Positions 13,751 to 25,933 of a DNA stretch of 32,817 nucleotides are shown here, piece after piece. Below the pieces are notes generated by a model that was not told the origin of the DNA, did no database searches, and saw only the letters and a program-made list of their open reading frames with translations. The DNA is taken from positions 1 through 32,817 of the forward strand of contig JAUSOK010000115.1 in the NCBI GenBank assembly GCA_030656035.1, read 5' to 3'. The DNA is from Syntrophales bacterium. GTDB taxonomy: Bacteria > Desulfobacterota > Syntrophia > Syntrophales > Fen-1087. Numbering within the stretch: the stretch's first letter is position 1; each line of letters opens with the position of its first letter. Made by a program: the position numbers and the translations under genes.

Positions 13751-16700
13751 ATGACAGTTTCCCAATACGGTTATCTCTTTGAGGCCAGCTGGGAGGTCTG
13801 CAACAAAGGCGGGGGGATCTATACGGTCATCACCAGCAAGCTCCGGGAAGCCCTGGCGGTCTATGGCGACCGGTATTTTCTGCTGGGACCGGATCTGAAA
13901 ACGAATCTGGAATTTGAGGAAACCGATGAGGCCTGCTGGGCAAAGATACGGGAGGGGACGGCAATTCAGGAGCTCCCCTGCCGTTTCGGTCGGTGGAAGA
14001 TTCCCGGCGAACCCAAGGTTGTCCTCGTTGGTTTTGGAAAAAAATATAACAAGGATCAGCTCCTTTACCGGATCTGGGAGGACTACGGCGTCGATTCCAT
14101 CGCCGGCGGCTGGGACTATGTGGAGCCGGTCATGTTCAGTTATGCCTGCGGCGAAGTCATCGCGACCATCTACAATCTGCTGGCCCGGCCGCAGGGAGAG
14201 CCGGCGGTCGCCCAGTTTCATGAATGGATGTGCGGAGCGGGCCTGCTGGCTCTGAAAAAGAAAGCCCCCGAAATCGGGACCGTTTTTACCACGCATGCGA
14301 CGATCCTGGGGAGATGCCTGGCCGGAGCGGGAATGGACATTTATACCGCCATGGAGAACATCGCACCGCAGCGGGAGGCAAGCGCCCATAACATCGCGGC
14401 GAAATATTCCATGGAGACGGCCGCCGCGCGGGAAGCCGACTGTTTTACCACGGTCAGTGAGATTACAGCGGCAGAGGCCAAAAACTTCCTCGGCCGCTGT
14501 CCCGATGTCATTACGCCCAACGGACTGGATCTCGAACATGTGCCGGATCTGACCCAAAACCGCGACCCGGCGTTGAAATCCCGGGAAAAGCTGCTTGCCG
14601 CGGCCACCCGCTTTCTCAGGAAGGACTTCCCCGCAAACACGAAAATAGTGGTCATTTCCGGTCGTTATGAATTCCGCAACAAGGGGGTGGATGTTTTTCT
14701 GAAAGCCCTGGGCCGCCTCGACAAAGAGATCGCTGAAAACCAGACAGTCCTGGCCTTTCTCTTTGTCATCGGCGGACACACGGACCTGATTCCCGCGCTG
14801 CAGGGAGATTACAGCAAATGGGAGCCCGGGAATCCGCCCATTTCGACCCACCGCCTCCAGAATGAGGCGTCCGATCCTATCCTGCAGACCTGCAACCGCG
14901 TGGGACTTAAAAATCTGCCGCAGAACCGGGTGCATGTAATCTTCAGCCCCGCCTATCTGAACGGCCACGATGGCCTGATCAACATGACCTACTATGAAGC
15001 GCTGTCCGGGTGTGATCTGGGCGTTTTTCCCTCCTACTACGAACCCTGGGGCTATACCCCCCTGGAAAGCGTAGCCTATGCGGTTCCTACGGTCACCACG
15101 GATCAGGCCGGATTCGGCCTGTGGGTGAGGGATACAGGCGGCGCCGACGGCGGCGTCATTCTGTTAAACCGCAGAGGGCAGCCGATCCGGCTCATTGAGG
15201 ACCACCTTCATGACATCTTTGCAGATTTTATCCACTGGGAAGACGCCGAGCTCAACAAGCGACGCAAAGCAGCACGAACCATCGCCCTCAAGGCCAACTG
15301 GAAAGATTTTTTTCAGAGCTATTTACTGGCCTATGAAAAGGCACGCCTTGCAGCCGATGATCGCTCGAAAAAACTGGCCCTGGCCGAGGTAAAATATACC
15401 TTTGCCGGAACGGCTTCCACCCAGCCGCACTTCCGGACATTCACGGCAGTAGCCACCCTGCCGGACAGGATTTCCCGGCTTCGGGAACTTGCCTACAACC
15501 TGTGGTGGACCTGGCATCCGAAAGCCCTGGATCTTTATGCATCGCTCGATCCGAGAATCTGGTCGCAAATGAACAACAATCCCGTCATGATGCTGGAGAC
15601 ACTCTCTCCCGAATGCCTCCTGGAGGCGTCGGAAAACCAGAGCTACATGAACCTCTATGAACAGGTCATGAAGCGCTTCGATGACTATCTGAATGACCGC
15701 GAACCGCCGAAGAATTCTGAATTTTCCACGGATATCAAATGGTCGTCGCCGATTGCCTATTTTTCAGCAGAGTACGGGCTTCATGAGTGCCTGCCTATTT
15801 ATTCAGGAGGCCTTGGCACGCTGTCCGGCGATCACCTGAAGACGGCCAGCGACATCAATCTGCCGCTTGTCGGCGTCGGTTTGCTCTACAAAAACGGCTA
15901 TTTCAAGCAGGTCATTGATAAAAACGGCTTGCAGATAGCGGAGTACCCGGAAAACGATTTTTCCAATATGCCCGTACAGATTGTCCGGGACGACCGCGGC
16001 AAAGAGGTGCAGATCTCTCTGGAGCTGCCGGGGCGGACCCTTTATGCCAATATCTGGGAAGTCAAGGTCGGCCGCGTCACCCTTTATCTTCTGGATTCCG
16101 ATGTGCCGGGAAATACGCTGCAGGACCGGAGAATCACGTCCCGGCTCTACAGCGCCGATCAGCGGACCCGCATTGAACAGGAGATTCTGCTCGGGATGGG
16201 CGGGGTCCGGCTGTTGAATCGGCTGGGAATCAAGCCGCGCGTTTATCACATCAACGAAGGCCATTCGGCCTTTCTGCTGTTTGAACTGATCGCCGAACGC
16301 ATGACGGCCGACGGGCTCTCTTTTGAGGAGGCCAGCGAGGTCGTCCGCGGCAGCGCGGTTTTCACCACCCACACCCCGGTGGAGGCGGGCAACGAACGCT
16401 TTACCAGGGACCTGATGGAACATTACTTCTGCAGTTTCGTCAACTGGTCGGGGATGTCCTGGTCGCAGTTCTGGGAATCGGGCCTGAAGGAAAGCGGCGA
16501 CGACAAACCGTTTTTTATGAACATCCTGGCATTCAAACTCACGCATCGGCGCAATGCCGTGAGCCGCGTCCATGGGCAGCTTGCCCGCCACATGTGGCGC
16601 GACGTCTGGAAGGGCTATAATGACGACGACATCCCCATCCGACATGTGACCAACGGCTCCCATATCCTGTCCTACCTGGCGCCGCGCATGAAAGAACTCC

Positions 16701-17995
16701 TGGACACCTACCTGGGCATGAACTGGGAAGGGCGCCTGACGGACACGGAGCGCTGGAAACGGGTCCACGACATCCCGGACATCCTTTTGTGGCGGACCCG
16801 TCATGAAATCAAACAGCGGACCATCGATCTGCTCCGGGATTATCTGTCCCGCAGTTGGTCCAAATACGGTTACTCCAAGGACTGGCGGGAGGAGCTTTAT
16901 TCGCGCATCAATCCGGCGGCCCTGTTGATCGGCTTCTCGCGGCGGTTTGCCCCGTACAAGCGGGCGAACATGCTTCTGTCCGACCTGGACCGCCTGGCCC
17001 GGATCGTCAACCATGAAACCCGGCCGGTGCATATCGTTTTTGCCGGCAAGGCGCATCCCAATGACGAGATCGGGAAAAGCATTCTCAAACAGGTGCTTGA
17101 CGCTTGCAAGGATGAACGTTTCCGGGGACGGATTTTCTTCATCGAGAACTATGATATCCGCATCGCCCGGCATTTAGTTCAGGGCGTGGATGTCTGGATC
17201 AACACCCCCCGCCGGCCCTACGAGGCGAGCGGCACCAGTGGCATCAAGGTGGTGGCCAACGGGGTTCTCAACCTCAGCGTCTCCGACGGCTGGTGGTGTG
17301 AAGGCTATGACGGCGCCAACGGCTGGACCATCGGACCGGTCCTGCGGAATTATTCCGCCGAGACTGAAAATGCCGATGAAGAAGACACCCAGTCTCTTTA
17401 TGCGCTGTTGGAAAACACCGTCGTCCCGCTGTTCTACGACCGCCAGGGATCGGGCATTCCGGAGAAGTGGATTGCCATGATCAAACGGTCGATGGAAAGC
17501 ATCATCCCCCGATTCAATACGGAACGGATGCTGATGGAATACTATCAGGGGATGTATCTGCCCACTGCAATCAGGACGCAGGAACTCACCCGGGACGATT
17601 TTGTGATGGCCAGGGCGCTGGCCGACTGGAAACGGAAGATCCCCATGCGTTTCTCTTCCGTCAAGCTGCTGGACGTAACCGTCGAAGGGATTCATGGCGA
17701 TAACATCCCCGTGAACGAATCCCTGAAGCTGACCGCGCGGGTTGATCCGGGCAAGATTGAACCCCACGAGATTATGGTGGAACTGGTTATCGGCCGCAGG
17801 GACGGGCAGGACAATGTAGCCCATACGGAATATCTGCCGATGCGCATCGCAAACAAAGGCGCGGACGGGATTCTCACTTTTTCCGTTGAATACTTCATCC
17901 GGGAAAACGGACCGTACAGTTACGGCCTGCGGGTCCTGCCGTATAATGAAAAACTGGCATCCAGGCAGGAAACAGGATTGGTCCTGTGGGGATAA
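13751..17995 (+). CDS. Bifunctional GT3-type glycogen synthase / GT35 alpha-glucan phosphorylase fusion
   Basis: 1414 residues; GAGGAGG lies 7-8 bp before the ATG. Residues about 1-540 form a GT3-like glycogen synthase: LFEASWEVCNKGGGIYTVI (9-27), QFHEWMCGAGL (155-165), TTHATILGR, TTVSEITAAEA, TPNGLDL and YEPWGYTPLESVAYAVPTVTT. That pattern is nearer fungal/animal GT3 synthases than bacterial GlgA (GT5). Residues about 560-690 are the phosphorylase front domain (LRELAYNLWWTWHPKA). The GT35 part follows: YFSAEYGLHECLPIYSGGLG, INEGHSAF (834-841), TTHTPVEAGNERF, and EASGTSGIK with the PLP lysine at K1166. Residues about 1300-1414 may form a small beta domain. The first half would extend glucan from a nucleotide sugar; the second would release glucose-1-phosphate with phosphate. 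Having both in one chain is odd and suggests tight coupling of storage and use. Such fusions are, to my knowledge, annotated in other deltaproteobacteria. Confidence 0.9.
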   Translation: MTVSQYGYLFEASWEVCNKGGGIYTVITSKLREALAVYGDRYFLLGPDLKTNLEFEETDEACWAKIREGTAIQELPCRFGRWKIPGEPKVVLVGFGKKYNKDQLLYRIWEDYGVDSIAGGWDYVEPVMFSYACGEVIATIYNLLARPQGEPAVAQFHEWMCGAGLLALKKKAPEIGTVFTTHATILGRCLAGAGMDIYTAMENIAPQREASAHNIAAKYSMETAAAREADCFTTVSEITAAEAKNFLGRCPDVITPNGLDLEHVPDLTQNRDPALKSREKLLAAATRFLRKDFPANTKIVVISGRYEFRNKGVDVFLKALGRLDKEIAENQTVLAFLFVIGGHTDLIPALQGDYSKWEPGNPPISTHRLQNEASDPILQTCNRVGLKNLPQNRVHVIFSPAYLNGHDGLINMTYYEALSGCDLGVFPSYYEPWGYTPLESVAYAVPTVTTDQAGFGLWVRDTGGADGGVILLNRRGQPIRLIEDHLHDIFADFIHWEDAELNKRRKAARTIALKANWKDFFQSYLLAYEKARLAADDRSKKLALAEVKYTFAGTASTQPHFRTFTAVATLPDRISRLRELAYNLWWTWHPKALDLYASLDPRIWSQMNNNPVMMLETLSPECLLEASENQSYMNLYEQVMKRFDDYLNDREPPKNSEFSTDIKWSSPIAYFSAEYGLHECLPIYSGGLGTLSGDHLKTASDINLPLVGVGLLYKNGYFKQVIDKNGLQIAEYPENDFSNMPVQIVRDDRGKEVQISLELPGRTLYANIWEVKVGRVTLYLLDSDVPGNTLQDRRITSRLYSADQRTRIEQEILLGMGGVRLLNRLGIKPRVYHINEGHSAFLLFELIAERMTADGLSFEEASEVVRGSAVFTTHTPVEAGNERFTRDLMEHYFCSFVNWSGMSWSQFWESGLKESGDDKPFFMNILAFKLTHRRNAVSRVHGQLARHMWRDVWKGYNDDDIPIRHVTNGSHILSYLAPRMKELLDTYLGMNWEGRLTDTERWKRVHDIPDILLWRTRHEIKQRTIDLLRDYLSRSWSKYGYSKDWREELYSRINPAALLIGFSRRFAPYKRANMLLSDLDRLARIVNHETRPVHIVFAGKAHPNDEIGKSILKQVLDACKDERFRGRIFFIENYDIRIARHLVQGVDVWINTPRRPYEASGTSGIKVVANGVLNLSVSDGWWCEGYDGANGWTIGPVLRNYSAETENADEEDTQSLYALLENTVVPLFYDRQGSGIPEKWIAMIKRSMESIIPRFNTERMLMEYYQGMYLPTAIRTQELTRDDFVMARALADWKRKIPMRFSSVKLLDVTVEGIHGDNIPVNESLKLTARVDPGKIEPHEIMVELVIGRRDGQDNVAHTEYLPMRIANKGADGILTFSVEYFIRENGPYSYGLRVLPYNEKLASRQETGLVLWG

Positions 17996-18171: not shown

Positions 18172-18930
18172 TTAAACAGGGCGCGGGCGGGACTCAGGGC
18201 GTGAAATTTTTTGCGTCTCCGCCTGAAACAGGGTTCCAAGCGTTCGGTGATCCTGGTTCGTCCTCTTGGCGAGGGCCAGCATGATGTATCGGCAGCACAC
18301 CACGGTGGCGTGGGCGACAAGCGCGTCATAGGATCGCCCCTGGCATTCTTTAGCAAGGTTGAGAAACGACTTGGCCATCTTGAAAAATACCTCGATGTCC
18401 CATCTTCGTTTGTAGACCGTGACGATCTCCTCGTCGCCCAAGGCGATATCGGTGGACAGCAGGGCCAGCCACTTTTTGCTGCGCCTGTCCCGGACGAACA
18501 CGATCTTTGCCGACACAGGAACCCCCTTGTCATCCTCGCCGATCTCGACCATGACCGAGGCGAGAATCTTGGCGCGGCCTCGCCGCTTGCGGATCTTCCT
18601 GTAGATGGCCGCCAGATGGAGATCTTCTCCCTGGTAGCGATAGAAGATCTTTTCCGTGACCTTGAGCATGCAGATGGTATGCACCCCCTTCGCGAGCAAC
18701 TTCCTCATGGTTGCGGGAAAGGCAAACCAGCTGTCGAACAGAAGGTGACTGGCTTGAATCCCGCTTGCGACGGCCTCGGCCACCATCTCGACAAGAACAT
18801 CGGTTGCCTTGCGGATGCCTTCCCGGCGACGCATCGCTCCGTTGGTGCGACGGTCAAGGATCTGCCCGCGCCACATTTCTTCCGCTGAGCGGGCTGAAGG
18901 GATTTCTGATTCCGAGTCAAACCATTCCAT
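18172..18930 (-). pseudogene. IS4-family transposase remnant, amino-terminal half missing
   Basis: 252 residues remain of a transposase usually above 400. The second catalytic Asp is present (D66 in SHLLFDSWFAF), as is the IS4 YREK signature: Y173, R176, E180 and K187 with exact Y-2-R-3-E-6-K spacing. The segment carrying the first catalytic Asp is absent. On its own strand, the DNA before the ATG at 18930 is the leader of the DUF1846 gene, so the 5' part is deleted rather than out of frame. No terminal inverted repeats were found. The element is presumably immobile. The 176 bp between it and the glycogen fusion gene (17996-18171) hold nothing I can identify. Confidence 0.82.
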
Positions 18931-22186: not shown

Positions 22187-23443
22187 ATGGATATAAAAAC
22201 ACAAGTCATCGAAATTGCCAAAAAAGCAAAAAAGGTCTCGGCGGCCTTAGGAAAGGTCAACTCAGAGGAAAAGAACAGCGTCCTGTTGCGGATGGCCGAG
22301 GCGCTGGTCGAGAGGCGTGATTTCCTGATCGCAGAAAACGCCAAAGATCTCGATGGTGCCGTCCGGACGGGGCTCCCCCCGGCGATGATGGATCGGCTGA
22401 CCCTGAATGAGCCGGCTATCGAGGGGATGGCCGCGGGGCTCAGGGAAGTGGCAGCCCTGCCTGATCCTGTCGGCAAAATCACGTCGATGTGGCGGCGCCC
22501 GAACGGCCTGCTTGTCGGCAGGATGCGCATCCCTCTGGGCGTGATCGGCATCATCTACGAATCCCGGCCCAATGTGACCGCCGACGCGGCGGCGCTATGT
22601 CTCAAATCGGGAAATGCCGTCATTCTGCGGGGCGGTTCCGAAGCCATCCATTCCAATCTCGCCATTGCCCGGATTCTTCAGGATGTCCTGAAAAAATCGG
22701 CGCTGCCCGAGGCGGCTCTCCAGGTTATTCCTGTTACCGACCGGGCAGCCGTTTACGAGCTGCTTCAACTGGAAGAATACATCGATCTGATCATCCCGCG
22801 GGGCGGCGAAGAGCTGATCCGGGCAGTGGTGAGCCAGTCCAGGATCCCTGTCATCAAACATTACAAGGGGGTCTGTCATATCTTCGTGGACGCGGGCGCC
22901 GACCTCGATATGGCCGCTGCAATCTGTATGAATGCCAAGGTCCAGCGGCCGGGGGTCTGCAACGCTATGGAGACGCTGCTCGTGCATGCGGATACGGCGG
23001 ATGTGTTTTTACCGGTCATCGCCGAAAAGTTCCGGCATGCCGGCGTCACGTTGAAAGGCTGCCCGAAAGCACGGGCCATCCTGCCGAATATCGAGAAAGC
23101 GACGGAGGACGACTGGTATCGGGAATACCTGGATCTGGTCCTCGCGGTGCGCGTGGTTCCAGATCTGGACGCGGCCATCGTCCATATCGAACAATACGGG
23201 TCCCTGCACACGGAATCCATCATCACGCAAGATTACACGCGTGCCCAGCGCTTCTTGAATGAGGTGAATTCCTCCACCGTGCTGGTCAACGCATCCACGC
23301 GCTTCAGTGACGGCTTTGAGCTCGGCCTGGGAGCGGAGATCGGCATCAGCACGACGAAACTGCACGCTTATGGACCCATGGGCCTGGAAGAATTAACCAC
23401 AACGAAGTTCATTATTTATGGAAACGGACAGGTGAGAACATGA
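22187..23443 (+). CDS. proA: Gamma-glutamyl phosphate reductase
   Basis: 418 residues, the usual ProA length. It reduces gamma-glutamyl phosphate to glutamate semialdehyde with NADPH, the second step of proline synthesis. Seen: [24 protein letters not shown] (the cofactor region, near residues 125-147), the catalytic Cys258 in [15 protein letters not shown], and [26 protein letters not shown] near the end. AGGAAG lies just upstream of the ATG. Its last codons overlap nadD by four bases (ATGA), the sign of translational coupling. proB, which supplies the substrate, is not in the window; proC is 5 kb away on the other strand. Confidence 0.96.
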
Positions 23444-24090
23444 AATGGGGATTACTGGGAGGGACATTCGATCCGATCCATCTCGGCCATCTGCGGTGTG
23501 CCGAGGAAATTCTGGAGATTTTCAATCTAAACCGCATTATCTTCACACCCGCATCGAGGCCGCCTCATAAAATCGAGGCTGATATCACGTCTTTTTATCA
23601 CCGGGAACAGATGATCCGGCTGGCCATCGAGGATAACCCGAGTTTTTCGTTTTCCGATGTAGAGAATCAGCGTGAGGGCAAATCCTTCTCCGTCAGCACG
23701 ATTGAGTACTTCCTGGAGAAATACCTGAAGCAACTGGAATTGTATTTCATCGTCGGACAGGACGCGTTTCATGCCATCCAGACCTGGAAGGAGTGGGAAA
23801 AACTTTTGCTGCTGTGCAACTTTGTCGTCATGACGCGGCCCGACTATGAAAACAGGGGCCTGACGGGGATTGTCCCTCCCGATTTTGCCGCCCGGTTTGT
23901 CTATGACGACGACTTGAAGGGATTCAAAGGCCCCACCGGTCATATCATCTTTTTCCGGGATGTGACCTTCCTGGACATCTCGGCCAGCAACATCAGGCAA
24001 CGGGCCCGTCTTGGGAAATCCATCACCTATCTTGTGCCCGACAGCGTTCGTCACTATATAATCAAAAATCAGATCTATAAAAAATTCTGA
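23440..24090 (+). CDS. nadD: Nicotinate-nucleotide adenylyltransferase
   Basis: 216 residues, full length for NadD. It joins nicotinate mononucleotide and ATP into deamido-NAD. The nucleotidyltransferase motif [11 protein letters not shown] (7-17) is intact, and the closing [21 protein letters not shown] matches the family's ISxTxIR signature with Ala in place of the usual Ser/Thr. It overlaps the proA stop by ATGA. In many deltaproteobacteria proA-nadD is followed by rsfS; here the next gene is cimA behind its own promoter and attenuator, so the usual operon ends at nadD. Confidence 0.94.
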
Positions 24091-24106: not shown

Positions 24107-24135
24107 TTGACAAATCCGCGAAGACGTTTTATGCG
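24107..24135 (+). promoter_or_regulatory. Promoter of the cimA leader
   Basis: TTGACA (24107-24112) is a perfect -35 box. At 17-bp spacing lies TATGCG (24130-24135), a -10 with only its first three bases matching. Transcription from about 24142 would place the leader-peptide ATG some 29 bases into the RNA, which suits an attenuator. Confidence 0.5.
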
Positions 24136-24170
24136 TGTCGAGAAACGGCAGGAAGGTCGGAATCATTCAA

Positions 24171-24251
24171 ATGCTGGGAAACACAACGGCAATTATAATG
24201 ATCGAGATCATAATTAGGTCTGGGCATACTGGCGGCCTGATGATCCGGTAG
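24171..24251 (+). CDS. Isoleucine-rich leader peptide of the cimA attenuator
   Basis: A 26-residue ORF from the ATG at 24171 to the TAG at 24249-24251. It holds seven isoleucines, six of them packed in AIIMIEIII (residues 7-15), encoded by ATT, ATA, ATC, ATC, ATA and ATT. CGGA at 24158-24161 lies about 9 bp before the start, with AGGAAGG further upstream at 24150-24156. It ends 20 bp before a strong terminator and 77 bp before cimA. By analogy with the ilv, leu and his leaders, a ribosome stalled at the Ile codons for lack of Ile-tRNA would leave the antiterminator free to form. The peptide itself is not expected to have a function. Confidence 0.78.
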   Translation: MLGNTTAIIMIEIIIRSGHTGGLMIR

Positions 24252-24292
24252 TGTTTTAAAAAAATAAAAACAAAAAAACCGTTATCAGGGCC
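24234..24292 (+). promoter_or_regulatory. Predicted antiterminator pairing of the cimA attenuator
   Basis: GGCCTGAT (24234-24241) can pair with ATCAGGGCC (24284-24292, one bulged G), and CGGT (24246-24249) with ACCG (24278-24281). These pairs consume the left arm and loop of the terminator that follows, so the two structures exclude each other. The upstream strand overlaps the end of the leader peptide, so a ribosome that reaches its stop codon would block this pairing and allow termination. Confidence 0.65.
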
Positions 24293-24309
24293 GTGATAAC
24301 GGTTTTTTT
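24272..24309 (+). terminator. Intrinsic terminator (attenuator) ahead of cimA
   Basis: CCGTTATCA (24279-24287) pairs perfectly with TGATAACGG (24294-24302) around the loop GGGCCG. A seven-A run before and a seven-T run after (24303-24309) extend the stem and supply the terminal U-tract. It stands 20 bp before the cimA start codon with no gene between, so it must regulate cimA and not only end the nadD transcript. Confidence 0.85.
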
Positions 24310-24328
24310 GTCCAGAGAGGCAATAGCG

Positions 24329-25933
24329 ATGAAAAAAACATGGGATGTTCTGATTTACGACACAACCCTGAGGGATGGCACACAGGGTGAGCAGATCAAT
24401 TTTTCCGCCGAGGAAAAACTGCGGATCGCCCTGCGGCTCGACGATATGGGGTTTCATTATATAGAAGGCGGCTGGCCCGGCTCCAATCCCAAGGATGTCC
24501 GTTTTTTCGAACTGGCGAAGACAGCGCCTTTCAGGCATGCCCGCCTCACCGCCTTCGGCAGCACGAGAAAGGCGCACACCCGCCCGGAGGACTGTCCGAA
24601 CCTTCAGGCGCTGTTGAACGCACAGACGCCGGCGGTGGCCATTTTCGGAAAGACCTGGGATCTCCACGTCATCCAGATTCTCGAGGTTGCGCCGGATGAG
24701 AATCTCGCAATGATCCGCGATTCCGTGGCCTACCTCAAGTCACAGGACAAGGAGGTCGTCTATGATGCGGAACATTTCTTTGACGGGTATAAAAAAAATC
24801 CGGCTTACGCACGCAAAACCTTGGAAACGGCCCTGGCAGCGGGGGCGGATCTGATTGTCCTGTGCGATACCAATGGAGGAACGCTTCCCCACGAGATCAC
24901 CACCGTCATCCAGGAAGTGTCCGGCTTGATCCCTCTGCGGCAGATGGGCATCCACGCCCACAATGACGGCGGCGTCGCCGTGGCCAATTCCCTGGCCGCC
25001 GTACATGCGGGCGTCAAAATGGTCCAGGGCACCATAAATGGTTTCGGGGAGCGATGCGGAAACGCCGATTTGATCCCGATCATGGCGAATCTCCAGTTGA
25101 AGATGAAGAAACGCTGTCTGACCGACGAGGCCCTCCAACATCTCACCAACCTGTCCAACTATATGAGCGATATTGCCAACGTGCCGCCGCTCAATGCAAG
25201 ACCCTTTGTCGGGCGGAGCGCCTTTGCCCATAAAGGCGGGGTTCATGTCAGCGCCGTTGTCAAGAATTCGGCCGCCTATGAACATATCAGGCCGGAGTTG
25301 GTGGGCAATCAGCAGCGCGTCCTGGTTTCGGATCTGGCGGGCAAGAGCAACATTGAGTACAAGGCACGGCAGCTCGGCGTCGATCTGGGGCTGGATAAAG
25401 CGACCAGCAAAAAGATCGTCCGGGAAATCAAAAAAATGGAAGATCGCGGGTACCAGTTTGACGCGGCAGAAGGATCGTTGTCTCTGCTGATCAAAAAGCA
25501 GACCGGCGAGTTCGTCGAACCTTTCAACCTGGAAAGCTATCATGTGCTGATTGCCAAACGGGGGAACGAGCCGCCGCTGGCCCAGGCTTCAATTAAAATC
25601 TCCGTGGGCGATGAACAGGAGGTGACGGCCGCCGAGGGGAACGGCCCCATCAACGCCCTCGACAATGCGCTGAGGAAGGCGCTGACCAAGTTCTACCCGC
25701 AAATCGACGCCATGCACCTGGTGGACTTCAAGGTCCGGATTGTTGAAGGCAGCGAAGGAACGGCGGCGCTGGTGAAAGTGCTGATCGATACCCGGGACGA
25801 GGACGAGGTGTGGAGCACGATCGGGGTCTCGGAAAATGTCATTGAAGCAAGCTGGCACGCGTTGGTGGACAGCGTCCAGTACAAACTCAGCAAGGATAGG
25901 CTCAATAACAACCACCGGAAAGAAAAACGCTGA
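24329..25933 (+). CDS. cimA: (R)-Citramalate synthase
   Basis: 534 residues from the ATG at 24329, with AGAGAGG 8 bp upstream; the frame's earlier ATG at 24293 lies inside the terminator. It condenses pyruvate and acetyl-CoA to citramalate, giving 2-oxobutanoate for isoleucine without threonine deaminase. The catalytic barrel shows DTTLRDGTQGEQ (11-22), GWPGSNPKD, LCDTNGG, HAHNDGGVAVANS with the metal-binding His pair, and GERCGNADL. The carboxy-terminal LeuA-type regulatory domain follows from about residue 390 (KISVGDEQEVTAAEGNGPINALDNALRKAL region). The length and the GWPGSNPKD motif point to the long CimA type rather than LeuA or NifV. Regulation by Ile-tRNA through the upstream attenuator is strongly suggested. 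Confidence 0.92.
   Translation: MKKTWDVLIYDTTLRDGTQGEQINFSAEEKLRIALRLDDMGFHYIEGGWPGSNPKDVRFFELAKTAPFRHARLTAFGSTRKAHTRPEDCPNLQALLNAQTPAVAIFGKTWDLHVIQILEVAPDENLAMIRDSVAYLKSQDKEVVYDAEHFFDGYKKNPAYARKTLETALAAGADLIVLCDTNGGTLPHEITTVIQEVSGLIPLRQMGIHAHNDGGVAVANSLAAVHAGVKMVQGTINGFGERCGNADLIPIMANLQLKMKKRCLTDEALQHLTNLSNYMSDIANVPPLNARPFVGRSAFAHKGGVHVSAVVKNSAAYEHIRPELVGNQQRVLVSDLAGKSNIEYKARQLGVDLGLDKATSKKIVREIKKMEDRGYQFDAAEGSLSLLIKKQTGEFVEPFNLESYHVLIAKRGNEPPLAQASIKISVGDEQEVTAAEGNGPINALDNALRKALTKFYPQIDAMHLVDFKVRIVEGSEGTAALVKVLIDTRDEDEVWSTIGVSENVIEASWHALVDSVQYKLSKDRLNNNHRKEKR

Follow-up and report, generated by a model that had tools for sequence, protein, structure and literature searches.

The cimA locus and its leader

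The window, the whole stretch of 32,817 nucleotides that was analysed, is contig C110 of a draft genome (G000; 1.98 Mb, 91% complete). It carries the citramalate synthase gene cimA (24329–25933, forward strand), which scores 722 bits against TIGR00977 (cut-off 450) and falls under the respective cut-off of every 2-isopropylmalate synthase model. CimA catalyses the first committed step towards isoleucine and is the entry to the citramalate route. The gene upstream is nadD (23440–24090) and the gene 3' of cimA encodes L-threonylcarbamoyladenylate synthase (TIGR00057). Elsewhere in the window, a single ORF of 1414 aa (13751–17995) looks by eye like a fusion of a glycogen synthase-like domain and a glycogen/maltodextrin phosphorylase-like domain, and an IS4-type transposase-like fragment, its start seemingly cut, was likewise noted by eye at 18172–18930.

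None of ilvB, ilvC, LEU2-type leuC and leuA was found over cut-off in the draft genome. The idea that this organism is without acetolactate synthase was set aside since ilvB and ilvC, as well as leuC, are present in the sister genome G001, and an assembly gap is thus the likelier explanation for the missing ilvB, ilvC and leuC than gene loss. Searches of G000, G001 and a third genome, G002, returned no leuA over cut-off.

Between nadD and cimA lies a leader with its own putative promoter (24107–24135, forward strand), comprising TTGACA at 24107–24112, a spacer of 17 nt and TATGCG at 24130–24135. The TTGACA box, which an earlier note on this DNA had pointed out, is exactly kept in 47 of 52 leaders, compared to 1.25 expected from shuffles of the 130 nt upstream of the Ile run; the promoter is assigned from sequence conservation alone. 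A simple promoter scan missed it because the -10 box has a final G, and gave the terminator on the reverse strand only. The leader peptide ORF (24171–24251, forward strand; ATG at 24171, stop codon TAG at 24249–24251) has 26 codons and encodes MLGNTTAIIMIEIIIRSGHTGGLMIR, with six Ile within the nine residues AIIMIEIII, as previously read, and a seventh near the C-terminal end; an Ile-rich ORF is co-located in 53 leaders. Codon analysis of this ORF places the control codons, ATT ATA ATG ATC GAG ATC ATA ATT (six Ile), at 24192–24215.

Four forward-strand segments form the alternative pairings. Strand 1 (GATCATAATTAGGTC, 24206–24220) pairs with strand 2 in the minimum free energy (MFE) fold and adjoins the final Ile codons, so that a stalled ribosome would mask it. 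Strand 2 (GGCCTGATGATCCGGT, 24234–24249), recognised from consensus complementarity and covariation, is both the 3' arm of hairpin 1:2 and the 5' arm of the antiterminator. Strand 3 (ACCGTTATCAGGGCC, 24278–24292) is common to antiterminator and terminator and covaries with both partners, and strand 4 with the T tract (TGATAACGGTTTTTTT, 24294–24309) forms the 3' arm of an intrinsic terminator that itself displays covariation. The antiterminator pairs GGCCTGAT (24234–24241) with ATCAGGGCC (24284–24292) and CGGT (24246–24249) with ACCG (24278–24281), both of which the earlier note had already paired correctly. It is broken in the window (8+4 pairs), compared to 11 contiguous pairs in the consensus of relatives. 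The terminator had been described as a perfect 9-bp stem with seven Ts ending 20 bp before cimA; its site and the seven T (24303–24309) hold. The arms ACCGTTATCA (24278–24287) and TGATAACGGT (24294–24303) form a perfect 10-bp core, lengthened by A/T tracts, and the last T is 19 nt from the cimA ATG (24329).

Conservation, covariation and folding

Six Ile in nine codons has a probability of ~1e-5 per position given the local Ile frequency of 7.2%, and the leader folds with z = -3.7 compared to shuffles. Nearly all cimA loci examined from the window's order are immediately preceded by a small ORF rich in Ile and by the same terminator sequence, and runs with at least five Ile in twelve codons occur in 49 of 56 leaders, compared to ~2% of random 400-nt stretches from the same loci, taking the best small ORF in each. 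The leader in front of cimA is not a chance arrangement, its conservation in relatives removing any doubt. Ile accounts for 409 of 1578 codons (26%) in 53 leaders (ATT 166, ATC 123, ATA 120), with ATG contributing 52, and is retained while the third base varies between ATT, ATC and ATA. The share of ATA among leader Ile codons (120/409) compares to 26/327 in eight genes of the window, where this codon is rare. The C-terminal half of the leader peptide is variable among relatives.

Covariation was counted in an alignment of 48 leaders. In the terminator, 98.5% of cells are paired, and 5 pairs (32 cells) are changed on both sides. For the antiterminator, the strand 2 consensus CCTGATAATGG is complementary to that of strand 3, CCGTTATCAGG, with 92.4% of cells paired and double changes in 4 pairs (18 cells). 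The antiterminator surpassed all 500 shuffles in its paired cells, its double-changed cells and its covariation score, whereas the numbers of pairs and of pair types, taken by themselves, were not above shuffles; when the partner was slid along, antiterminator pairing fell to 25–52%. Compensatory changes in both stems exceed the slid and the shuffled controls. Both strand 2 and strand 4 carry changes that match those in strand 3, which is the pattern predicted by mutual exclusion, and the earlier suggestion that the two stems exclude each other through 24278–24292 is borne out by this and by the masked folds described below. RNAalifold on the alignment returned the terminator only, since terminator and antiterminator have a common strand, and the antiterminator was therefore tested apart. 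Hairpin 1:2 appears in the MFE fold of 40 of the 48 relatives, with a mean dG of -12.2 compared to -8.5 for shuffles.

Folding of the window leader with and without masking, as the note had proposed, gave the expected states. Without a ribosome, hairpin 1:2 and the terminator form; masking of strand 1 in an RNA that stops at 24292 yields the antiterminator (-18.4 kcal/mol); and with a ribosome placed on the stop codon, covering strand 2, the terminator alone remains. In full-length RNA the terminator is favoured in free energy even when strand 1 is masked, from which we infer that switching has to be under kinetic control, like that of other attenuators. The elements of the cimA leader are present, conserved and covarying, and its terminator and antiterminator are mutually exclusive. 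The note had held that its reading would be refuted if relatives lacked a conserved Ile-rich ORF, or covarying stems, in front of cimA; neither pattern occurred, and both ORF and stems are conserved in the aligned relatives.

Predicted mechanism and comparison with known systems

By its anatomy the leader would belong to the leader-peptide attenuator class, since it combines an end-product codon run, an intrinsic terminator, an antiterminator sharing a strand with it, hairpin 1:2 at the control codons and its own promoter. It is very probably a trp/ilv-type, ribosome-mediated transcription attenuator, predicted to sense charged isoleucyl-tRNA and to control cimA. Leader translation, ribosome stalling and a response to isoleucine, each of them predicted, would be its working parts. 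Transcription would start downstream of TTGACA, with a ribosome trailing RNA polymerase on the leader ORF. When isoleucine is ample, the ribosome would clear the Ile codons and come to the stop codon, where strand 2 ends, masking that strand and leaving strands 3 and 4 to pair and transcription to end before cimA. When isoleucine is scarce, it would stall at ATC-ATA-ATT and mask strand 1, so that the free strand 2 could pair with strand 3 before strand 4 is synthesised and polymerase would continue into cimA. A high fraction of control codons is expected to raise the sensitivity of an attenuator (PMC1183508), a model which fits the Ile-dense cimA leader. Points against the attenuator reading include the spacing between the ribosome-binding-like site AGGAAGG and the leader ATG, which at 14 nt is above the usual, and the antiterminator of the window, which is weaker than the consensus.

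A further point against it is that conserved leader codons are not always proof of classical attenuation: in Streptomyces coelicolor, altering the candidate leader codons of ilvB had no effect (PMC1262725). This result, and the precedent of leader peptides acting in trans, such as peTrpL (PMC7298713), raise the possibility that the cimA leader works on cimA translation, on RNA stability or through its peptide in trans, and not mainly on termination. We consider this very improbable, as the best-conserved feature is the intrinsic terminator with its T tract and competing antiterminator, the cimA ribosome-binding site lies outside the conserved strands, and the C-terminal half of the leader peptide varies. 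A structured RNA conserved upstream of an amino acid gene might also be a riboswitch or T-box directly binding isoleucine, tRNA-Ile or another ligand, with the ORF incidental. That there is hardly any room for this explanation follows from the lack of any Rfam family in the window at gathering threshold, T-box and known riboswitches included, from the nature of the conserved parts, which are a codon run with variable third bases and three short complementary strands rather than an aptamer-like core, and from the way in which leader codon identity tracks the operon (see below). It is equally hard to credit that the terminator merely ends the nadD transcript and that the small ORF is due to chance: terminators commonly lie downstream of genes and nadD ends at 24090, but the conserved TTGACA promoter sits between nadD and the leader, the Ile-rich ORF and antiterminator are conserved, and the leader-antiterminator-terminator unit precedes cimA, ilvB, ilvD and ilvA in other genomes.

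Among known systems, the ilvGMEDA leader holds Ile, Val and Leu codons, and E. coli is not known to use cimA; the cimA leader differs from that attenuator in being almost pure Ile and in its predicted control of cimA. In the thr operon leader of E. coli, which governs thrABC, the control codons are those for Thr and Ile. The cimA leader is like it in having Ile among the control codons, and unlike it in its predicted target, cimA rather than thrABC, and in scoring below the gathering threshold of Thr_leader RF00506. That family was the best sub-threshold Rfam match (24190–24312, 31.5 bits compared to a gathering score of 55), and membership was rejected on this score; the next-best lenient matches were microRNA models, which fitted the terminator because of its long hairpin. 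E. coli and Salmonella ilvGMEDA, ilvBN and leu are leader-peptide attenuators (PMC1183508), which the cimA leader resembles in its leader ORF control codons, its 1:2, 2:3 and 3:4 pairings and its association with branched-chain genes. Candidate leader peptides have also been described upstream of ilvB in Actinobacteria, encoded by short ORFs in which branched-chain codons form runs and accompanied by terminators (PMC1262725). These share with the cimA leader the short codon-run ORF before a branched-chain gene and the terminator, but come from another phylum, have mixed Ile/Val/Leu codons and, in S. coelicolor, showed no effect of codon mutation.

A search of open-access papers returned no account of cimA attenuation, in line with the note, which knew of no described example for cimA. 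Provisionally, we regard the cimA attenuator as undescribed so far. Attenuation of this class is a textbook mechanism, and the apparent novelty lies in its application to cimA and in its near-pure Ile specificity. For cimA, a gene used in bioproduction, it offers a specific prediction of how expression is controlled in a large and mostly uncultured group of anaerobes.

Distribution and leader codons in relation to operon content

A leader model built from 46 relatives matches 134 of 155 genomes of the window's order, representing 48 of 53 genera, and 56 of 394 genomes in a phylum-wide sample; of these 56, 37 do not belong to that order. In the draft genome itself the cimA copy is the only strong match; two weak matches, one at 22.8 bits (C194) and one at 19.8 bits ahead of a SecA-like gene (C70), were rejected as they have no Ile-rich ORF. 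Relatives carry second copies of the leader, homologous and Ile-rich, upstream of ilvB-ilvN-ilvC, while matches outside the order lie upstream of cimA, ilvD and ilvB. Such a leader was not found at the cimA loci examined in Geobacter, Nitrospirota, Bacillota and other distant groups. In other orders of Desulfobacterota, candidate attenuators with Ile/Leu/Val leaders were observed before ilvD, encoding dihydroxy-acid dehydratase (L265–L267, L272, L275, L279–L283), the identity of one ilvD having been confirmed.

The sensor codons of the leader appear to track the genes downstream of cimA. Where no adjacent leuA or ilv gene was found (21 leaders), the mean composition is 32% Ile, 4% Leu and 2% Val; where cimA is followed by leuA (14 leaders), it is 19% Ile and 20% Leu; and where cimA is followed by ilvD-ilvB (3 leaders), it is 20% Ile and 14% Val. 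The association of leader Leu codons with leuA after cimA has p = 3e-7 overall, in statistics that ignore shared ancestry. Family f2, with adjacent cimA and leuA, is a separate occurrence within the window's order, but a single clade: four of its five leaders have 3–5 core Leu codons, compared to 0–2 in the rest (p = 0.006, shared ancestry again ignored), and the fifth, L126, has none. Leaders before cimA-leuC or cimA-leuB are still Ile-rich. The earlier argument that Ile-only codons fit an enzyme used only for isoleucine is strengthened by the occurrence of Leu codons with leuA and of Val codons with ilvD-ilvB. Amino acid specificity is in this way legible from sequence, which aids in telling cimA from leuA.

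An additional case, resting on one draft genome, is G022, in which no CimA was found (best match E = 1.5e-8) and IlvA is clear (608 bits); none of 11 other genomes tested has IlvA over cut-off. The homologous leader (L171/L237, 65.4 bits) lies here upstream of ilvA, which encodes threonine ammonia-lyase, the alternative isoleucine entry enzyme.

Other leaders were observed within the window's order. Those upstream of leuA (L284–L303) have Leu-rich ORFs, for example L293 (...LLLGLALLRLSLHTRRPSFLGNP), and a conserved terminator of their own, AAGGCCATGGGC..GCCCATGGCCTT, which is a third type; they would constitute a separate leucine attenuator. Ten ilvB leaders (L187, L190–L192, L203, L205, L210, L213, L222, L223) are Val-rich, for example L223 (MKNKLIVPGMVVVVVVPGGTAARCF), most of them with the terminator GAGCCGCGGG..CCCGCGGCTT, unlike that of the cimA leader. 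In other genomes of the order the ilvB leader is Ile-rich instead.

On balance we favour the view that the branched-chain genes of Desulfobacterota may be run by one homologous, re-programmable attenuator, reading Ile before cimA alone, Ile and Leu before cimA-leuA, Ile and Val before cimA-ilvD-ilvB, and Ile before ilvA in a cimA-less genome, its codons being rewritten as genes join or leave. Three switches in the window's order (Ile for cimA, Leu for leuA, Val or Ile for ilvB) would then take the place of the one multivalent ilv switch that enteric bacteria have. This provides a natural experiment in the evolution of an attenuator sensor alongside operon content. In one further leader upstream of cimA (L018, genome G028), TTGACA and a terminator are kept, with neither leader ORF nor strand 2 present, which would represent a natural loss of the sensor.
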